Positions 12,347 through 35,585 of a DNA stretch of 64,000 bases are shown here, piece by piece. Source of the stretch: Pseudomonadota bacterium (lineage in GTDB: Bacteria > Pseudomonadota > Gammaproteobacteria > Steroidobacterales > Woeseiaceae); contig JAQCAD010000003.1 in the NCBI GenBank assembly GCA_027621915.1, positions 62,001-126,000 of the forward strand. Direction: 5' to 3'. Position 1 is the stretch's first letter; each line of letters opens with the position of its first letter. Below the pieces are notes generated by a model. The model made no database searches, was not told the DNA's origin, and saw nothing but the letters and a program-made list of their open reading frames with translations. The position numbers and the translations under genes were made by a program.

Positions 12347-12363
12347 TGCGGCCAGTAGTCAAT

Positions 12364-12550
12364 AGGGTTGGCAGAAGAGACCTCTTTTAAGAGGCGCCGA
12401 AGGCGCAACACGCTCGGAAACGCTCAGGCACACGGACTGTCGACGCTGATTATCTCTGGAGAGAGGCTGGCAAGGCCCACCGAAGGGGTATGTCACTGGC
12501 GGTATGCAAACCGTCAGATGGCGATCTCTCAGGTTTCAGGACAGAGGGGC
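12364..12550 (+). ncRNA. Tandem glycine riboswitch
   Basis: Two aptamers in series upstream of gcvT. The first (about 12370-12445) has the family core GCCGAAGGCGCAA (12395-12407) and GCTCAGGCACACGGAC. The second (about 12452-12547) begins CTCTGGAGAG, then has CACCGAAGGGG, GCAAACCGTCAG, and ends ATCTCTCAGG...GGACAGAGG. These are the conserved glycine-riboswitch blocks, and the type-1 tandem order precedes a glycine cleavage operon as expected. A strong terminator follows at once, so binding of glycine probably prevents termination and turns on the operon. Confidence 0.93.
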
Positions 12551-12595
12551 GATCGAGTGAGCTTTCATAAAAGCTCACTCGATCGCCTTTTTTTT
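12548..12595 (+). terminator. Riboswitch-controlled intrinsic terminator
   Basis: An 18-bp stem (GGCGATCGAGTGAGCTTT with its exact complement at 12570-12587), a loop of about 4 nt and an eight-T run (12588-12595). The 5' edge of the stem touches the closing helix of the second aptamer (AGAGGGGC), so ligand-stabilised folding can compete with terminator formation. gcvT begins 29 bp later. Confidence 0.92.
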
Positions 12596-12624
12596 GCCAA
12601 TTAAAAAATCGCCCGGAGCGTTTG

Positions 12625-13716
12625 ATGGGGAAAAGGACACCGCTTTATCAGACCCATGTTGATGCCGGCGCCAAAATCGTTGATTTTGGCGGCTGGGACA
12701 TGCCGCTTCATTATGGTTCCCAGCTTGAAGAGCATCAATTTGTCCGCAGTGGCGCAGGCGTGTTCGACGTATCGCACATGACCGTGGTCGACGTAAGCGG
12801 AAGTGAATCGATGGCGTTTCTGCAAAAACTGTTTGCCAACGATGTCGGCAGACTGAAAGAAAAAGGCAAGGCCCTATATAGCTGCATGCTGAACGATCAG
12901 GGCGGCGTCGTCGACGACCTGATTACGTATTACCTCGGACCGGGCCGGTATCGCGTCGTCGTGAATGCAGCGACGCGCGACAAGGATATGGCGTGGATCA
13001 ACGCAGAGGCTGCGTCCTTCGATGTTGAGATTAATGAGCGCCCGGGCCTCGCGATGATGGCAGTGCAGGGGCCAAAAGCGCGGGAGCTCGCCGCGACCGT
13101 TATCGAGAACCAATGGCGCGATGCCGCGCTGGCATTAAAGCCCTTTTATGGACTTGAGGCAGGCGAGCTGTTTATCGCTCGCACTGGTTATACAGGTGAG
13201 GACGGTTGGGAAATCGTTTTGCCGGAGGCAATGGCCGTCGGCTACTGGCAAAGATTCGTCGACGCCGGGATTCGGCCGTGCGGATTGGGTGCAAGAGACA
13301 CGCTGCGGCTTGAGGCTGGCATGAATCTCTACGGTTCGGATATGAACGAGACGATTTCGCCGCTGGAGGCGGGGCTCGGCTGGACTATCGCCTGGGATCC
13401 GGCAGACCGGAATTTCAACGGCAGGGGTCCGCTGACCGCTATGCGGGAAAGCGACTCGCGCCAAAAATTTGCGGGACTTCTCCTGGAGGGCAAGGGCGTG
13501 TTGCGCGATCACATGCGCGTCGTTGTCGAAGGGCTGGCGGACGGTGAAATCACCAGCGGTGGATTTTCCCCAACGCTTGGACGCTCCATTGCGATGGCGC
13601 GGTTGCCTGCCGGCGATTATGGTTCCGCCAAGGTTGATGTGCGTGGTCGGATGCTGGACGCGCGAGTCGTAAAGATGCCGTTTGTTCGCAACGGAAAAAT
13701 ACAAATCGAGCTGTAG
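12625..13716 (+). CDS. gcvT: Glycine cleavage system T protein (aminomethyltransferase)
   Basis: A 363-residue protein, full length for GcvT. It transfers the methylene group from aminomethyl-lipoyl GcvH to tetrahydrofolate and releases ammonia. The N-terminus ([20 protein letters not shown]) and the folate-site region ([14 protein letters not shown]) are characteristic, as are [10 protein letters not shown] and [11 protein letters not shown]. The ATG at 12625 is preferred over a TTG one codon earlier. It is the first gene after the riboswitch, and gcvH follows 25 bp later. Confidence 0.97.
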
Positions 13717-13741: not shown

Positions 13742-14131
13742 ATGAGTGAATTGCCAGGTGATCTTGAATACACAGAAGAACATGAATGGCTTCGCAAGGA
13801 AGACGACGGCACCGTCACGATCGGCATCACCGATCATGCGCAAAGCGCGCTTGGCGATCTTGTCTATGTCGAATTGCCGGAAGTTGGCCAGGAAGTTGAA
13901 AGCGGCGGGGAGATGGCAGTTGTCGAGTCAGTAAAGGCAGCATCCGACGTATACGCGCCAATCTCCGGTGAGATCGTGGCCGTAAACGACGAGCTCGCCG
14001 ATGATCCGGAGAGAATCAATGCGGATCCTTACGGCGATGGATGGATAGTCCGGGTGAAGCCGACTGGCGACGACGCCAACATGATGGATTCGTTCGCATA
14101 CCAGGAATTCCTCGACGGGCTCGAAGAATAA
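13742..14131 (+). CDS. gcvH: Glycine cleavage system H protein (lipoyl carrier)
   Basis: A 129-residue biotinyl/lipoyl-like protein. The lipoylated lysine is Lys65 in [11 protein letters not shown]-terminal [12 protein letters not shown] and central [13 protein letters not shown] are standard for GcvH. It shuttles the aminomethyl group from P to T protein. An AGGGAGA ribosome site precedes the ATG at 13742. It lies between gcvT and gcvPA in the riboswitch operon. Confidence 0.97.
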
Positions 14132-14161: not shown

Positions 14162-15526
14162 ATGCCATTTATTCCCCACACTGACGACGAAGTCGAGGCC
14201 ATGCTTGGCGCAATCGGCGCGAAGAAAATCGATGATCTGTTCGACGAAATTCCTCGCGAACTCCTTATAAAGGATCTTGATGGAGTGCCTGATGCGCTCA
14301 GCGAACAGGAAATTTCACGTTTAATGAGGACCCGGGCGGCGCTGGATCGCGGTGCGAGGTGTTTCATCGGCGCAGGTGCGTACGAGCATCACATACCAGC
14401 GGCCGTGTGGGACATCGCGACCCGCGGTGAGTTTTATAGCGCGTATACGCCGTACCAGGCCGAAGCGAGCCAGGGCACGCTGCAGACTATCTACGAATTT
14501 CAATCGATGATGACGAGTCTAACCGGACTTGATGTCAGCAATGCGTCCCTTTATGACGGCGCTTCCGGCTTGGCGGAAGCAGCACTGATGGCGGTCAGGG
14601 CGAATCGAAAATCGAAATCGCGTCGCATACTGTTGGCGGCCGGCGTCAACAAACTGTATCAAAAGGTGGCGACTGCGATCGCGGGGTCACAAGGACTTTC
14701 GTTTGACCGTCTGCCGCTGAATACAAGAACCGGCAGTTCAGATCTTGACGCACTGAATAATCAGGTTGAACCACCGGTCGCCGTCGTCATACAGCAGCCA
14801 TCCTTTCTCGGCGTTTACGAACAGGTTGATGCGATTACAGACTGGGCGCACTCAAACGGTGCGCTCGTGATAGCGGTGATTAATCCAACCTCGCTCGCCG
14901 TGTTGAGGCCGCCAGGAAAATGGGGTGAAACAGGCGCCGACATCGCTTGTGGCGAAGGGCAGCCGTTTGGTGTGCCGCTGTCATCAGGTGGCCCGTATTT
15001 CGGCATCATGACCTGCAAAGAAGACATCGTCAGGCAAATGCCCGGTCGAATCGTCGGACGTACTACGGATCTCGATGGCAACCCCGGTTTCACGCTGACT
15101 TTGCAGGCGCGCGAACAACATATTCGCCGCTCGAAAGCGACCTCGAATATATGTACGAATCAGGGGCTTATGGTCACCGCCGCAACGATTTACATGTCGC
15201 TTCTGGGACACGAGGGTTTGCGTCGGGTCGCGCTGGCATCGCAGCAACAAACGGCGAAACTGCTCGAGCTGTTAACTGCTATCGACGGCGTCGAAAGAGC
15301 GTTTTCCTCACCGCATTTTCATGAAGCGGTTATTCGTCTCGATCGTCCTGTTGGTCCGGTTCTGGAATCACTGGCGGTCCAGGACATTCTCGGTGGCTTC
15401 GATTTGTCGACGGTGTATCCGGAGCTGGGAAATGCGCTTTTGATCTGTGCGACGGAAACAAAAAATGACGAGGATCTTGAGGCCTATGCAACAGCACTTC
15501 GCGATGTAATGAGCGCTCCGGCGTAA
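14162..15526 (+). CDS. gcvPA: Glycine dehydrogenase (decarboxylating) subunit 1
   Basis: A 454-residue protein matching the N-terminal half of glycine decarboxylase P protein in the two-subunit form (opening [31 protein letters not shown] and [10 protein letters not shown] in the middle). It pairs with GcvPB to decarboxylate glycine with PLP and load the methylamine on GcvH. It starts 30 bp after gcvH. Unusually, a peroxidase gene (15544) separates it from its partner gcvPB. Confidence 0.96.
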
Positions 15527-15543: not shown

Positions 15544-16074
15544 ATGAAAGAAATTATCTACAACGGCACGCGTTACAGAACTCATAGCGAATTGCCGCCG
15601 ATCGGGAGCCGTGCGCCCGATGTATCCCTCGTCAATACGCAACTGCAGGATGTGTCGCTGGCGAATTTCATGGGCAAACGAAAAGTGATTAACATTTTTC
15701 CCAGTATCGATACGCCCGTCTGCGCCAAGTCGGTGATCGTTTTTAATGCGCTGGCGAAGGAACACGACGATGTTGCGATGTTAATGGTGTCTTACGATCT
15801 GCCGTTCGCTCACGCTCGATTTCAGCGCGAGCATTCTCTGGATCGTGTCGTTGGGCTTTCCGCCATTCGGCATGCCGGATTCGGTGAAAATTACGGAGTC
15901 TTAATTCTGGAAGGACCCCTTGCCGGCATGTTTTCTCGCGCTGTAGTCGTGCTTGATGAGAACAATACGGTCGTCTACCGTGAACAGATTGCCGACATTG
16001 GCGACGAGCCGAATTACGCCGCAGCGTATAGAGCGCTCGGTATCGACGCCGATCCAGCGGAACTCGATGTTTGA
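15544..16074 (+). CDS. tpx: Thiol peroxidase (Tpx-type peroxiredoxin) lacking the resolving cysteine
   Basis: A 176-residue atypical peroxiredoxin of the Tpx group. The peroxidatic Cys60 lies in the canonical FPSIDTPVC, and the supporting Arg is in SRAVVVLDENN. The region that holds the resolving Cys in E. coli Tpx (RFCGAEG) reads RFQREHSLD, and the protein has no other Cys. It should therefore work as a 1-Cys enzyme, resolved by an external thiol, perhaps a dihydrolipoyl or thioredoxin partner; that partner is inference. It starts 17 bp after gcvPA and lies in the riboswitch-controlled operon. Confidence 0.9.
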   Translation: MKEIIYNGTRYRTHSELPPIGSRAPDVSLVNTQLQDVSLANFMGKRKVINIFPSIDTPVCAKSVIVFNALAKEHDDVAMLMVSYDLPFAHARFQREHSLDRVVGLSAIRHAGFGENYGVLILEGPLAGMFSRAVVVLDENNTVVYREQIADIGDEPNYAAAYRALGIDADPAELDV

Positions 16075-16136
16075 ATCAAGCGCACCAGCTCATTTAACCG
16101 CTATTGTCCGCAAAAATATAATTAGGAAACTCGAGA

Positions 16137-17609
16137 ATGACTGAACAATTGATTTTTGAACGATCACGACCGGGTCGTCGGGCTTACGCGCAGGCACCGC
16201 TCAACGATGTCGGTGGGTCTGTTCCCACAGAGTTTCAGCGTGGCGAAGCGCCGATCATGCCTGAGGTGTCGGAGTTACAGGTTGTTCGCCATTTCACAAG
16301 ATTGTCACAACAGAATTTTTCGATAGACACGCACTTTTATCCGCTCGGGTCATGCACGATGAAGTACAACCCGCGTGCGTGCAATTCGCTGGCGCTGTTG
16401 CCAGGTTTCGCGGGTAGACATCCGCTGGGCCCCGCGAGTCACGGCCAGGGATTTCTCGCATGCATGTATGAACTTCAGGACATGCTCAAATCCGTTACAG
16501 GTATGAAAGCTGTGTCGCTTACGCCGATGGCAGGCGCGCAGGGCGAATTGGCCGGTGTCGCAATGATTCGTGCCTACCACATCGCCAATGGCAACAACGA
16601 GCGCGATGAGATCATTGTTCCCGACGCCGCGCACGGCACCAACCCGGCGACCGCGACAATGTGCGGCTGTACCGTGAGGGAGATTCCAACGAATTCCGAG
16701 GGCGACGTTGACCTCGACGCATTACAGGCGGCGCTCGGTCCGAAAACGGCCGGCATCATGCTGACCAATCCGTCGACACTTGGCGTCTTCGAGCGCAGGA
16801 TTGCGCAAATTGCAGAGATGGTGCATGACGCCGGCGGACTGCTTTACTACGACGGGGCGAACCTGAATGCCATCCTCGGCAAAGTACGGCCGGGTGATAT
16901 GGGATTCGACGTTATTCACCTCAATCTGCACAAGACTTTCTCGACACCACATGGCGGTGGCGGACCAGGATCCGGGGCGGTGGGCGTCGGTAACAGGTTG
17001 AAGCCTTTTATGCCGATTCCAATCGTTGGCAAGACTGAAAAAGATGGTGTCCCGTACTACGACTGGCTGACCGAAAAAGACTTGCCACAAAGTATTGGAC
17101 ATTTGTCCGGTTTCATGGGTAATGCCGGAGTCTTGTTACGCGCGTACATTTATATGCGAATGGTTGGCAAGGATGGCATGAAGCGAATCGCCGAGTTTGC
17201 GACGCTCAACGCAAATTATCTCGGGGTTCGCCTCAAAGAGGCGGGATTCGAGCTGGCCTTTCCGGCGCGCCGCGCCAGCCATGAGTTCATTATCACGCTG
17301 AAAAACGAAGCCAGAACGCTCAATGTGAACGCAATGGATTTCGCCAAGGCGTTGCTGGACAAGGGCTTTCATGCGCCAACGACCTATTTTCCGCTCCTGG
17401 TGCCGGAGTGTCTGCTGATCGAACCGACCGAGACCGAAACGAAAGAGTCAGTCGACCGGTTTGTCGCGGCGCTGGTCGAAATCCGGGAAGAAGCGAAAAA
17501 AGATCCGGACAAGGTTAAAGGTGCGCCATACACGCTACCGGTGCGGCGCCTGGACGATGTCAAAGCCGCGCGACAGCTTGATCTTGCGTGGAAGGGTCAA
17601 TCTGTGTGA
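16137..17609 (+). CDS. gcvPB: Glycine dehydrogenase (decarboxylating) subunit 2
   Basis: A 490-residue protein matching the C-terminal half of P protein. The PLP-binding lysine is in [20 protein letters not shown], and [13 protein letters not shown] marks the N-terminal part. With GcvPA it forms the glycine decarboxylase. It begins 62 bp after the peroxidase. No gcvL/lpd gene is seen, so the L protein must be encoded elsewhere. The operon appears to end here. Confidence 0.97.
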
Positions 17610-33553: not shown

Positions 33554-35585
33554 GTGCGCCAGGCAAAGCTTGGAGGAGAGGGAAGTTATGTGAAGGAATG
33601 AAGTAACGGAAATCTCCTGAAGCAACCCGGCAGGTTGTAGTTCTGCCCGACAACGGTTGGCCACCGGTCGGAACCGAGTGTTGCGTGGACTGAGGGCGAC
33701 CTCAGCTGCGAAGCGTACACAGGGTGTTGCCAGGCCGCGTGATCCAGCTTCGAAAGGAATATGTTTCGGAGGCCGACACTGTTTTCAAAGTGGAAGGCTG
33801 CACAGCTCGCGTCGTATGGCCTGACGTGAGTTACTCCGCGGAGTCTATGAGCACGGCATGGTTAACGGGTGGGTTGTCCAGGAACCTGGGAGATCTCTCA
33901 CTTTCCGCTGAAGAGTAACGTTGGGGTAGCGTTCAATAAACACCCCGGTCCACGACGTAGCGTGTTGCGTTGCTGGAAGCGAAAAGAACACGCAATCAGC
34001 GGTACGCGACGCCGCAAGGTGTGCGGAGGAAGCGAGAGAAGTCGGAGTCTTCTCATAGTACTGAATAAGCAGGCGAACAGAGCCCAAACGGAGCCTGTGG
34101 AGGGAAGGGGAAGATCGGGTCAGATGCCGCAGAGAATGCGGCGAGTTGCTCAAGGAGGGACAGATGGCAGGAACACTGAGTCCACAAACCATCTCAACGA
34201 AACAACTTGGGCTTGCACAGCGAGCCGAACAGTATCCACACGAGGCGCTTAAAACGCTGTCGCACTTCATTGATCTGGACTGGCTGCGCGAAGCGTTCCG
34301 CCGGACGAGGAAAGATGGAGCGGCAGGTGTTGATGGTCAGTCGGCGGCACAGTATGAAGTCCAGCTTGAAGAAAACCTGTCGAGTTTACTCGACCGACTC
34401 AAGTTAGGGCGCTACCGGGCGCCGCCGGTGAAGCGTGTGTATATCCCGAAAGGTGACGGCAAGCGAGTTCGGCCGATTGGCATCCCGACGCTGGAGGACA
34501 AAGTTCTGCAGCGTGCCGTGGTGATGCTACTGGAACCCATTTACGAGACGCAGTTTAAGGACTGCTCGTTTGGGTTCCGGCCGGCGCGTTCCGCACACCT
34601 TGCGCTTGATCAGCTATGGCAGCAGGTAATGTCGCTGCCCAGTTGTTGGCTGATCGAACTCGATATCGAGAGCTTCTTCGATCGAGTGGATCGCGCGAAG
34701 CTTCGGGAGATGTTGGCTCGCCGGGTGGGTGACGGTGTGATCCGTCGCGTGATCGGGAAATGGCTGAAAGCGGGCGTGCTCGAAGGTGCGCAGCTGAGCC
34801 ATCCCGAACGAGGGACACCTCAAGGTGGTGTGATCTCGCCGTTGCTGGCGAATATCTATCTGCATGAGGTGTTGGATGCGTGGTTCGAAGAGGAAGTCCA
34901 ACCACGTCTTAAAGGCAGGTCTTTTATTGTCCGCTATGCGGATGATGCAGTACTAGGCTTTGCGAATAAGGAAGACGCTGAACGGGTTTATGCGGTGCTG
35001 GCGGAACGCTTTGCGAAGTATGCATTGACGCTGCATCCGGAAAAGACTCGGTTATTGCCGTTTACCCGACCACACTCAAACGATCGACCCCGGGGGGGTC
35101 CCGGGATCAGGCGGTCGTTCGACTTTCTCGGCTTTACGCTGTTCTGGGGACGATCCAGAAAAGGTCACTGGGTGGTTCGACGCAAAACGGCGAAGGACCG
35201 ATTAAGCCGGGCGCTGCGTAACGTCAACACGTGGTGTCGTCGTTATCGACACGCACCTGTTCAGAGGCAATATGCGGCACTGAGTCGCAAGTTACGGGGT
35301 CACTACGCGTACTATGGTGTGACCGGTAACGGTCGTTCGCTTGCGAGCTTCCGTCACCAAGTCGAACGCATCTGGCGCAAGTGGCTGGCGCGACGATCGC
35401 AGCGTGGTAAGTTGCCTTGGGATCGGTTCTCGGTGTTCCTTAAACGCTTCCCTTTACCCCCGGTACGCATTGTTCACAGTTCTTACCGTCACTCAGCAAA
35501 TACCTGACTTGAGGAGCCGGATGCGGGAGTTCCGCACGTCCGGATCTGTGGGAGCCCCAGTGAGCAATCGCTGGGGCGACCCGAC
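33554..35585 (+). mobile_element. Group II intron with maturase
   Basis: The 5' end GTGCGCCAGGC (33554) fits the GUGYG consensus. Ribozyme segments typical of bacterial introns follow, for example GCGAGAGAAGTCGGAGTC near 34032 and AGGAGGGACAG before the ORF. Domain V is 35514-35546 (GAGCCGGATGCGGG, loop, CCGCACGTCCGGATC). A domain VI hairpin (GCCCCAG/CTGGGGC) follows, and the 3' end is set at CCCGAC (35585, uncertain by some bases). About 2.03 kb. The parts needed for splicing appear present, so it may be active. It is placed between genes and interrupts no recognised gene. Confidence 0.88.
34164..35507 (+). CDS. ltrA: Group II intron reverse transcriptase/maturase
   Basis: A 447-residue intron-encoded protein. 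RT blocks are RPIGIPTLEDKVLQRAV, ELDIESFFDRVD, GTPQGGVISPLLANIYL and the active site YADD (VRYADDAVLGF). A maturase-specific domain follows (FDFLGFTLFWGRSRKG ... LSRALRNVNTW; YYGVTGNGRSL). There is no C-terminal HNH endonuclease domain, so target-primed insertion would need another primer, such as the replication fork. The ATG at 34164 has AAGGAGG upstream and is preferred to the TTG at 34146. Confidence 0.95.
   Translation: MAGTLSPQTISTKQLGLAQRAEQYPHEALKTLSHFIDLDWLREAFRRTRKDGAAGVDGQSAAQYEVQLEENLSSLLDRLKLGRYRAPPVKRVYIPKGDGKRVRPIGIPTLEDKVLQRAVVMLLEPIYETQFKDCSFGFRPARSAHLALDQLWQQVMSLPSCWLIELDIESFFDRVDRAKLREMLARRVGDGVIRRVIGKWLKAGVLEGAQLSHPERGTPQGGVISPLLANIYLHEVLDAWFEEEVQPRLKGRSFIVRYADDAVLGFANKEDAERVYAVLAERFAKYALTLHPEKTRLLPFTRPHSNDRPRGGPGIRRSFDFLGFTLFWGRSRKGHWVVRRKTAKDRLSRALRNVNTWCRRYRHAPVQRQYAALSRKLRGHYAYYGVTGNGRSLASFRHQVERIWRKWLARRSQRGKLPWDRFSVFLKRFPLPPVRIVHSSYRHSANT

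Follow-up and report, generated by a model that had tools for sequence, protein, structure and literature searches.

What does a single-cysteine thiol peroxidase (Tpx) do between the genes for the two subunits of glycine dehydrogenase? The question is raised by a 64,000-nucleotide stretch of Woeseiaceae DNA (referred to as the window), in which a tpx-like gene lies inside a glycine cleavage (gcv) operon and encodes a protein with Gln in place of the resolving cysteine. The protein could be a peroxidase that draws on the thiol of another molecule, a part of the glycine cleavage machinery or a passenger of the operon. These readings are weighed below using the window, its relatives in Woeseiaceae and operons from the rest of the order and class.

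The tpx gene and its operon in the window

The gcv genes and tpx are arranged in series on one strand, with glycine aptamers in front of gcvT (Table 1). The first-pass annotation had described an operon headed by a glycine riboswitch, with tpx separated from gcvPA by 17 bp on its upstream side and from gcvPB by 62 bp on its downstream side. The gene coordinates agree with both distances, and a tandem RF00504 match was found before gcvT. The hairpin that follows the aptamers likely functions as the expression platform of the riboswitch. For gcvT, the ATG at 12625 is as likely a start codon as the TTG at 12622.

Table 1. Features of the gcv operon in the window.
Feature	Coordinates	Strand	Basis
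Glycine riboswitch, first aptamer	12362..12449	+	RF00504, cmscan 64.7 bits
Glycine riboswitch, second aptamer of the tandem	12451..12549	+	RF00504, 37.1 bits (lax filters; gathering score 32)
Terminator-like hairpin with T-run after the aptamers	12545..12590	+	20-pair stem, T tail
gcvT	12622..13716	+	gene call and profile match to GcvT
gcvH, lipoyl carrier without Cys	13742..14131	+	profile match to GcvH
gcvPA, glycine dehydrogenase subunit 1	14162..15526	+	profile match
tpx-like, single-Cys Tpx with Gln94 for the resolving Cys	15544..16074	+	176 aa, NF001808
gcvPB, glycine dehydrogenase subunit 2	16137..17609	+	profile match

Two further elements were observed in the window. A promoter-like site (16094–16122, +) with 10 of 12 matches is located in the gap between tpx and gcvPB; such sites in the region do not exceed the number expected by chance. 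Farther downstream, a group II intron spans positions 33637–35585 (+) and is delimited by an RF02005 domain (33637–33853, 140 bits) and an RF00029 domain (35512–35585, 40.6 bits) that are ∼1.9 kb apart.

The window protein is a Tpx by profile and by fold. It matches the NCBIfam thiol peroxidase profile NF001808 with 185.1 bits (cut-off, 123 bits). Its predicted structure, with a mean pLDDT of 88.8, is most similar to chain B of PDB entry 2xpd (2xpd_B) in a Foldseek search, with TM scores of 0.89/0.94, and the top rows of the PDB matches are Tpx structures with 44–51% identity. The protein contains the signature PSIDTPVC, and the Pro53, Thr57, Cys60 and Arg132 residues are all present. At position 94, the alignment places Gln where the Tpx of solved structure has its resolving cysteine. 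The window protein reads AHARFQ at the AxxR(F/W)C motif, which is given as the resolving-cysteine motif of Tpx in PMC5302317. Cys60 is the sole cysteine of the protein, as originally claimed, and a resolving cysteine at a shifted position is therefore ruled out. No second Tpx was found in the window's own genome at an E value of 0.001. Seventeen stretches of this genome, including the Tpx, exceed the PF00578 cut-off, and several of the eight best resemble PrxQ/BCP peroxiredoxins as judged by eye rather than by profile classification.

Distribution of the gcvPA-tpx-gcvPB arrangement

The taxonomic family of the window genome (coded f1), which corresponds to Woeseiaceae according to the record titles of its relatives, was surveyed in 107 genomes. 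A Tpx match was obtained in 93 of them at an E value of 0.001 and was strong (E below 1e-20) in 88, and a gcvPB match (E 1e-20) was obtained in 94. Strong Tpx matches are found in 88 of the 94 genomes with gcvPB versus none of the 13 without it; part of this joint presence and absence can stem from common loss of the operon and from incomplete assemblies. From the 88 genomes, 89 Tpx rows were taken. The named duplicates L031–L046 were excluded from the family counts of residues, traits, neighbours and shifted sites and were included in the cysteine table of the neighbour proteins. The order is gcvPA-tpx-gcvPB in all 81 family rows that have both neighbours on the contig, and the remaining eight rows display a contig edge on one side and the expected gene on the other. 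A search of the family genomes for a second, ordinary Tpx yielded no other strong match except contig-end fragments.

In five family genomes (G001, G052, G066, G069 and G072; loci L071–L075), gcvPA directly adjoins gcvPB without Tpx between them, and tpx is thus dispensable. The sixth genome with gcvPB and without a strong Tpx match, G016, contains just a distant gcv set.

The arrangement was also sought outside the family, as the first-pass annotation had suggested, and it recurs widely rather than being peculiar to one genome. In other families of the same taxonomic order, 20 of 24 Tpx loci exhibit the gcvPA-tpx-gcvPB order. The class sample of 274 genomes contains Tpx in 133 (E 1e-20) and gcvPB in 170 (E 1e-140). 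Among the gcvPB matches listed, which represent 147 class genomes outside the family, 90 genomes have Tpx, and in 70 of them tpx precedes a same-strand gcvPB at a distance of no more than 1.6 kb, with a gap of over 1 kb in four of these 70 pairs. Eighty class loci, mostly picked for nearness to gcvH among the gcvH matches listed, were examined individually. gcvPA and gcvPB both flank tpx in 69 of them; in the others, tpx is accompanied by gcvPA only (five loci), by gcvH (three) or by no gcv gene (two) or follows gcvPB (one). Overall, both gcvPA and gcvPB are found in the stretch in 90 of 104 loci outside the family, from 55 families. In other classes of the phylum, no gcv gene was found within the 6-kb stretch at any of 20 Tpx loci (30 genomes with a match). 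At least one glycine aptamer precedes gcvT in all 13 loci scanned, nine from Woeseiaceae and four from other families of the order.

A different placement is observed at four of the 24 order loci outside Woeseiaceae (L054, L055, L061 and L062, from families f5 and f8), where a gene for a 2-Cys Tpx directly follows gcvH and the stretch contains no split gcvP.

In many families of the class, the gcv operon led by a glycine riboswitch includes a gene for a 2-Cys Tpx, which is usually located between gcvPA and gcvPB. Of the sampled class genomes for which a gcvPB is listed, about half have this arrangement, which ties glycine cleavage to a thiol peroxidase in ordinary Gammaproteobacteria, in any of which the tie can be tested. 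The link between peroxidase and glycine cleavage that had been proposed for the window thus exists and is wider than supposed, but it mostly involves ordinary 2-Cys Tpx enzymes and not the single-cysteine form. A full-text search of the open-licence literature retrieved no paper on Tpx in a gcv operon; an earlier mention elsewhere is possible.

A single loss of the resolving cysteine in Woeseiaceae

Outside Woeseiaceae, Cys60 and Cys94 are kept in all 104 Tpx sequences, and the Pro/Thr/Cys/Arg quartet is complete in 103. In the family, Cys94 is found in none of the 88 rows with a letter at the site; 46 of them have Gln, and eight other residues occupy the position elsewhere. Cys60 is retained in 85 of 86 rows, Arg132 in 76 of 88 and Thr57 in 70 of 86, and Pro53 in 19 of 86. 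Cys60 is the only cysteine in 62 of 84 full-length rows, and the further cysteines of the family are spread over 11 positions. Quartet and trait counts cover the 85 rows that have letters at all sites concerned. The quartet is complete in 18 of these rows, all of which lie outside the largest genus (g11; 0 of 65), and at least one quartet residue is missing in the other 67. The reading frames of the family are intact and full-length.

According to PMC5302317, the Pxxx(T/S)xxC motif is definitive for peroxiredoxins and the Arg is absolutely conserved in them; PS(I/L/V)DTx(V/T/I)C is reported in 98.5% and the active-site Arg in 99.3% of the Tpx group. The earlier description of a peroxidase dependent on an external thiol suits the window protein, in which the quartet is present, but not most Woeseiaceae, in which it is incomplete.

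Two observations concern individual sequences. One family row (L134, from genome G095, which is 62% complete) has a full-length Tpx frame in which Ser replaces Cys60; its branch length of 0.19 exceeds those of the neighbouring rows (0.04–0.08), and this Tpx may be decaying. In-frame stops in the order and class matches were examined as candidates for Sec-Tpx and rejected; the frames read out to ∼165–175 aa with Cys60, and the stops are most likely gene ends.

In trees built from 46 family rows and every second class row, Woeseiaceae are monophyletic for Tpx (SH-aLRT 99). The tree needs a single change for the loss of Cys94, two for Pro53, 10 for Thr57 and nine for Arg132. Loss of the resolving cysteine was a single event on the branch leading to Woeseiaceae. 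The family stem in the Tpx tree has a length of 0.63 changes per site versus 0.01–0.28 for those other families that group as clades there (two to four rows each). In the trees of the neighbour proteins, the family stem measures 0.13 (GcvPA), 0.18 (GcvPB) and 0.30 (GcvH), and the GcvH value is within the range of other families (0.21–0.40).

The long Tpx stem is accompanied by residue changes that define the clade. Sites with a residue shared by at least 93% of family rows and by under 15% of outside sequences were counted as clade-wide shifted sites. They make up 14 of 166 sites in Tpx, seven of 124 in GcvH, five of 450 in GcvPA and one of 478 in GcvPB. In total, 73 of the 166 Tpx sites reach at least 93% conservation in the family, and the 14 shifted sites are among them. 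Ten of the 14 are clustered at residues 84–90, 107–116 and 129–130, which in the predicted structure correspond to the start of the resolving-cysteine helix, the loop and helix that come after it, and the loop that leads to Arg132, respectively. Going by Tpx structures, these ten sites are presumably close to the active site in space.

One account of these data is a plain peroxidase that would have turned from a 2-Cys into a 1-Cys enzyme. Peroxide would oxidise Cys60, thioredoxin or a low-molecular thiol would restore it, and the operon would only provide co-expression with an oxygen-sensitive pathway. The window Tpx, with its Tpx fold and its Pro53, Thr57, Cys60 and Arg132 residues, is consistent with such an enzyme, as is the ordinary 2-Cys nature of all operon Tpx proteins outside the family. 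The account is nonetheless rather unlikely for the family. It does not explain why most family rows lack Pro, Thr or Arg residues described as definitive or absolutely conserved (PMC5302317), nor the 14 new clade-wide residues, and the window's own genome is already rich in proteins of the wider peroxiredoxin family.

Selection on the gene was estimated from eight rows of genus g1 and 22 hand-picked rows of g11. The median dN/dS of Tpx is 0.069 in g1 (28 pairs) and 0.076 in the g11 subset (231 pairs), values that are rough because synonymous sites are near saturation in 22 of the 28 and 83 of the 231 Tpx pairs. The corresponding values of GcvPA are close, at 0.060 (g1) and 0.066 (g11). These values bear on a decaying passenger, that is, a gene that would have lost its peroxidase function at the family base and persisted mainly through its place in a translated operon. 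The repeated losses of Thr57 and Arg132, the one loss of Cys60 and the five genomes without the gene are in keeping with decay, and yet the reading is very improbable given a dN/dS near 0.07 in both clades, strong conservation at 73 sites that include the 14 new ones, and frames that remain intact over the full length. Rapid change at first and constraint afterwards are better explained by a changed function than by decay.

Candidate partners, proposed role and known systems

The neighbour proteins were inspected for a thiol that could take the place of the resolving cysteine. No gained cysteine peculiar to the genomes without the resolving cysteine was found in the neighbour proteins. GcvPA Cys67 was considered as a compensating residue, since it is present in 91 of 92 family rows (duplicates included) and two of 19 order rows, and was ruled out because it also occurs beside 2-Cys Tpx in 48 of 75 class rows and is kept in four of the five family genomes that lack Tpx. 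GcvPB Cys178 was dismissed likewise, as it is found in 15 of 19 order rows too. In GcvH, a cysteine seven residues before the lipoyl-Lys motif (Cys58) is present in 67 of 77 class rows and in none of 66 Woeseiaceae rows. Its loss is not tied to the Tpx change, as the residue is also missing in several order families with a 2-Cys Tpx. The shifted sites of GcvH include residues 50, 56 and 58, upstream of Lys65, the lipoyl site according to the family motif. The joint shift of GcvH and Tpx was not counted as support for a partnership because Woeseiaceae have an unremarkable GcvH stem.

These results bear on a more specific proposal, in which the Tpx would be a peroxidase reduced specifically by the dihydrolipoyl group of GcvH, and the cost of removing peroxide would be borne by glycine oxidation. 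gcvH resides in the same operon, and since family GcvH has no cysteine at the common column, the lipoyl arm would supply the only thiols of this protein. Lipoylated proteins reduce Ohr (PMC4486171), which makes lipoyl-GcvH a sensible candidate donor. Coupling of Tpx to lipoyl-GcvH is possible, with no specific support from the GcvH branch or from a partner cysteine. As an explanation of the family protein it is improbable. No special change of GcvH marks the family base, the operon link extends to 2-Cys Tpx enzymes that need no such donor, and the residues that activate peroxide are lost in most family members.

The lipoyl arm and the flavoprotein of the glycine cleavage system are prone to oxidation. 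On balance, the sequence comparisons favour an operon-resident 2-Cys peroxidase that would have become a single-thiol protein serving glycine cleavage in Woeseiaceae, and in most of the family the Tpx is probably no longer a normal peroxidase. In the ancestral stage, a 2-Cys peroxidase would have guarded glycine cleavage. At the base of Woeseiaceae, the single loss of the resolving cysteine coincided with the 14 clade-wide changes, and this branch is long in the Tpx tree but not in those of the operon neighbours. The signature Pro was then lost in the largest genus, where Thr and Arg were also lost repeatedly, while the frame, Cys60, the operon place and a low dN/dS were kept. The present protein would be a single-thiol partner dedicated to glycine cleavage.

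The conversion to a single-thiol protein would have different consequences within the family. In the window species, Cys60 most likely still reacts with peroxide, the quartet being complete, and its reductant would be a thiol of another molecule, such as thioredoxin, the lipoyl arm of GcvH in its dihydrolipoyl form or a low-molecular thiol. The g11 proteins, which have lost the quartet, are unlikely to reduce peroxide quickly. In such relatives, Cys60 and the remodelled pocket most likely act on a protein or lipoyl thiol, probably one that belongs to the glycine cleavage system. A fuller version of this proposal is more tentative. In it, the Woeseiaceae Tpx would have been converted from a peroxidase into a riboswitch-controlled part of glycine cleavage, a small protein encoded between the two P-protein subunits. 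Its lone thiol, together with the rebuilt pocket, would target the lipoyl arm or the P-protein, for example by resolving or sensing oxidised lipoyl groups, and the 2-Cys operon Tpx of other Gammaproteobacteria would represent the ancestral form that guards glycine cleavage.

The active sites of peroxiredoxins are among the most conserved in biology, yet their definitive residues are lost in most Woeseiaceae, and the protein, its cysteine and its place in the operon are kept despite this loss. The family and its relatives thereby offer a dated series, from 2-Cys to 1-Cys Tpx, to loss of the quartet and to loss of the gene, that could show what a peroxiredoxin does once it is no longer a peroxidase.

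Comparison with known systems locates the window protein in the Tpx subfamily (E. coli and Yersinia; PDB 1qxh and 2xpd), with which it shares the fold, the NF001808 match, the PSIDTPVC signature and Arg132. Unlike these enzymes, it has no resolving cysteine, 14 residues of its family are unusual for the subfamily and most of its relatives lack the signature Pro. It resembles the 1-Cys peroxiredoxins Prx6 and AhpE in having one catalytic cysteine and hence needing an outside thiol. However, Prx6 and AhpE belong to other subfamilies, and AhpE structures rank below all Tpx structures in the fold search, whereas the Woeseiaceae protein descends from a 2-Cys Tpx by loss of the resolving cysteine. 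The Ohr fold differs from the Tpx fold, and AhpC with AhpD in Mycobacterium is a case of a lipoyl-linked peroxidase. Lipoyl-dependent peroxidases (Ohr, and AhpC with AhpD, Lpd and SucB) provide a precedent for a lipoylated protein that feeds a peroxidase; according to PMC4486171, Ohr has two catalytic cysteines, and lipoylated proteins are reported donors for OsmC and AhpC too. The operon itself resembles known glycine-riboswitch gcv operons in its tandem glycine aptamers before gcvT and differs from them in the peroxiredoxin gene located between the genes for the two P-protein subunits.
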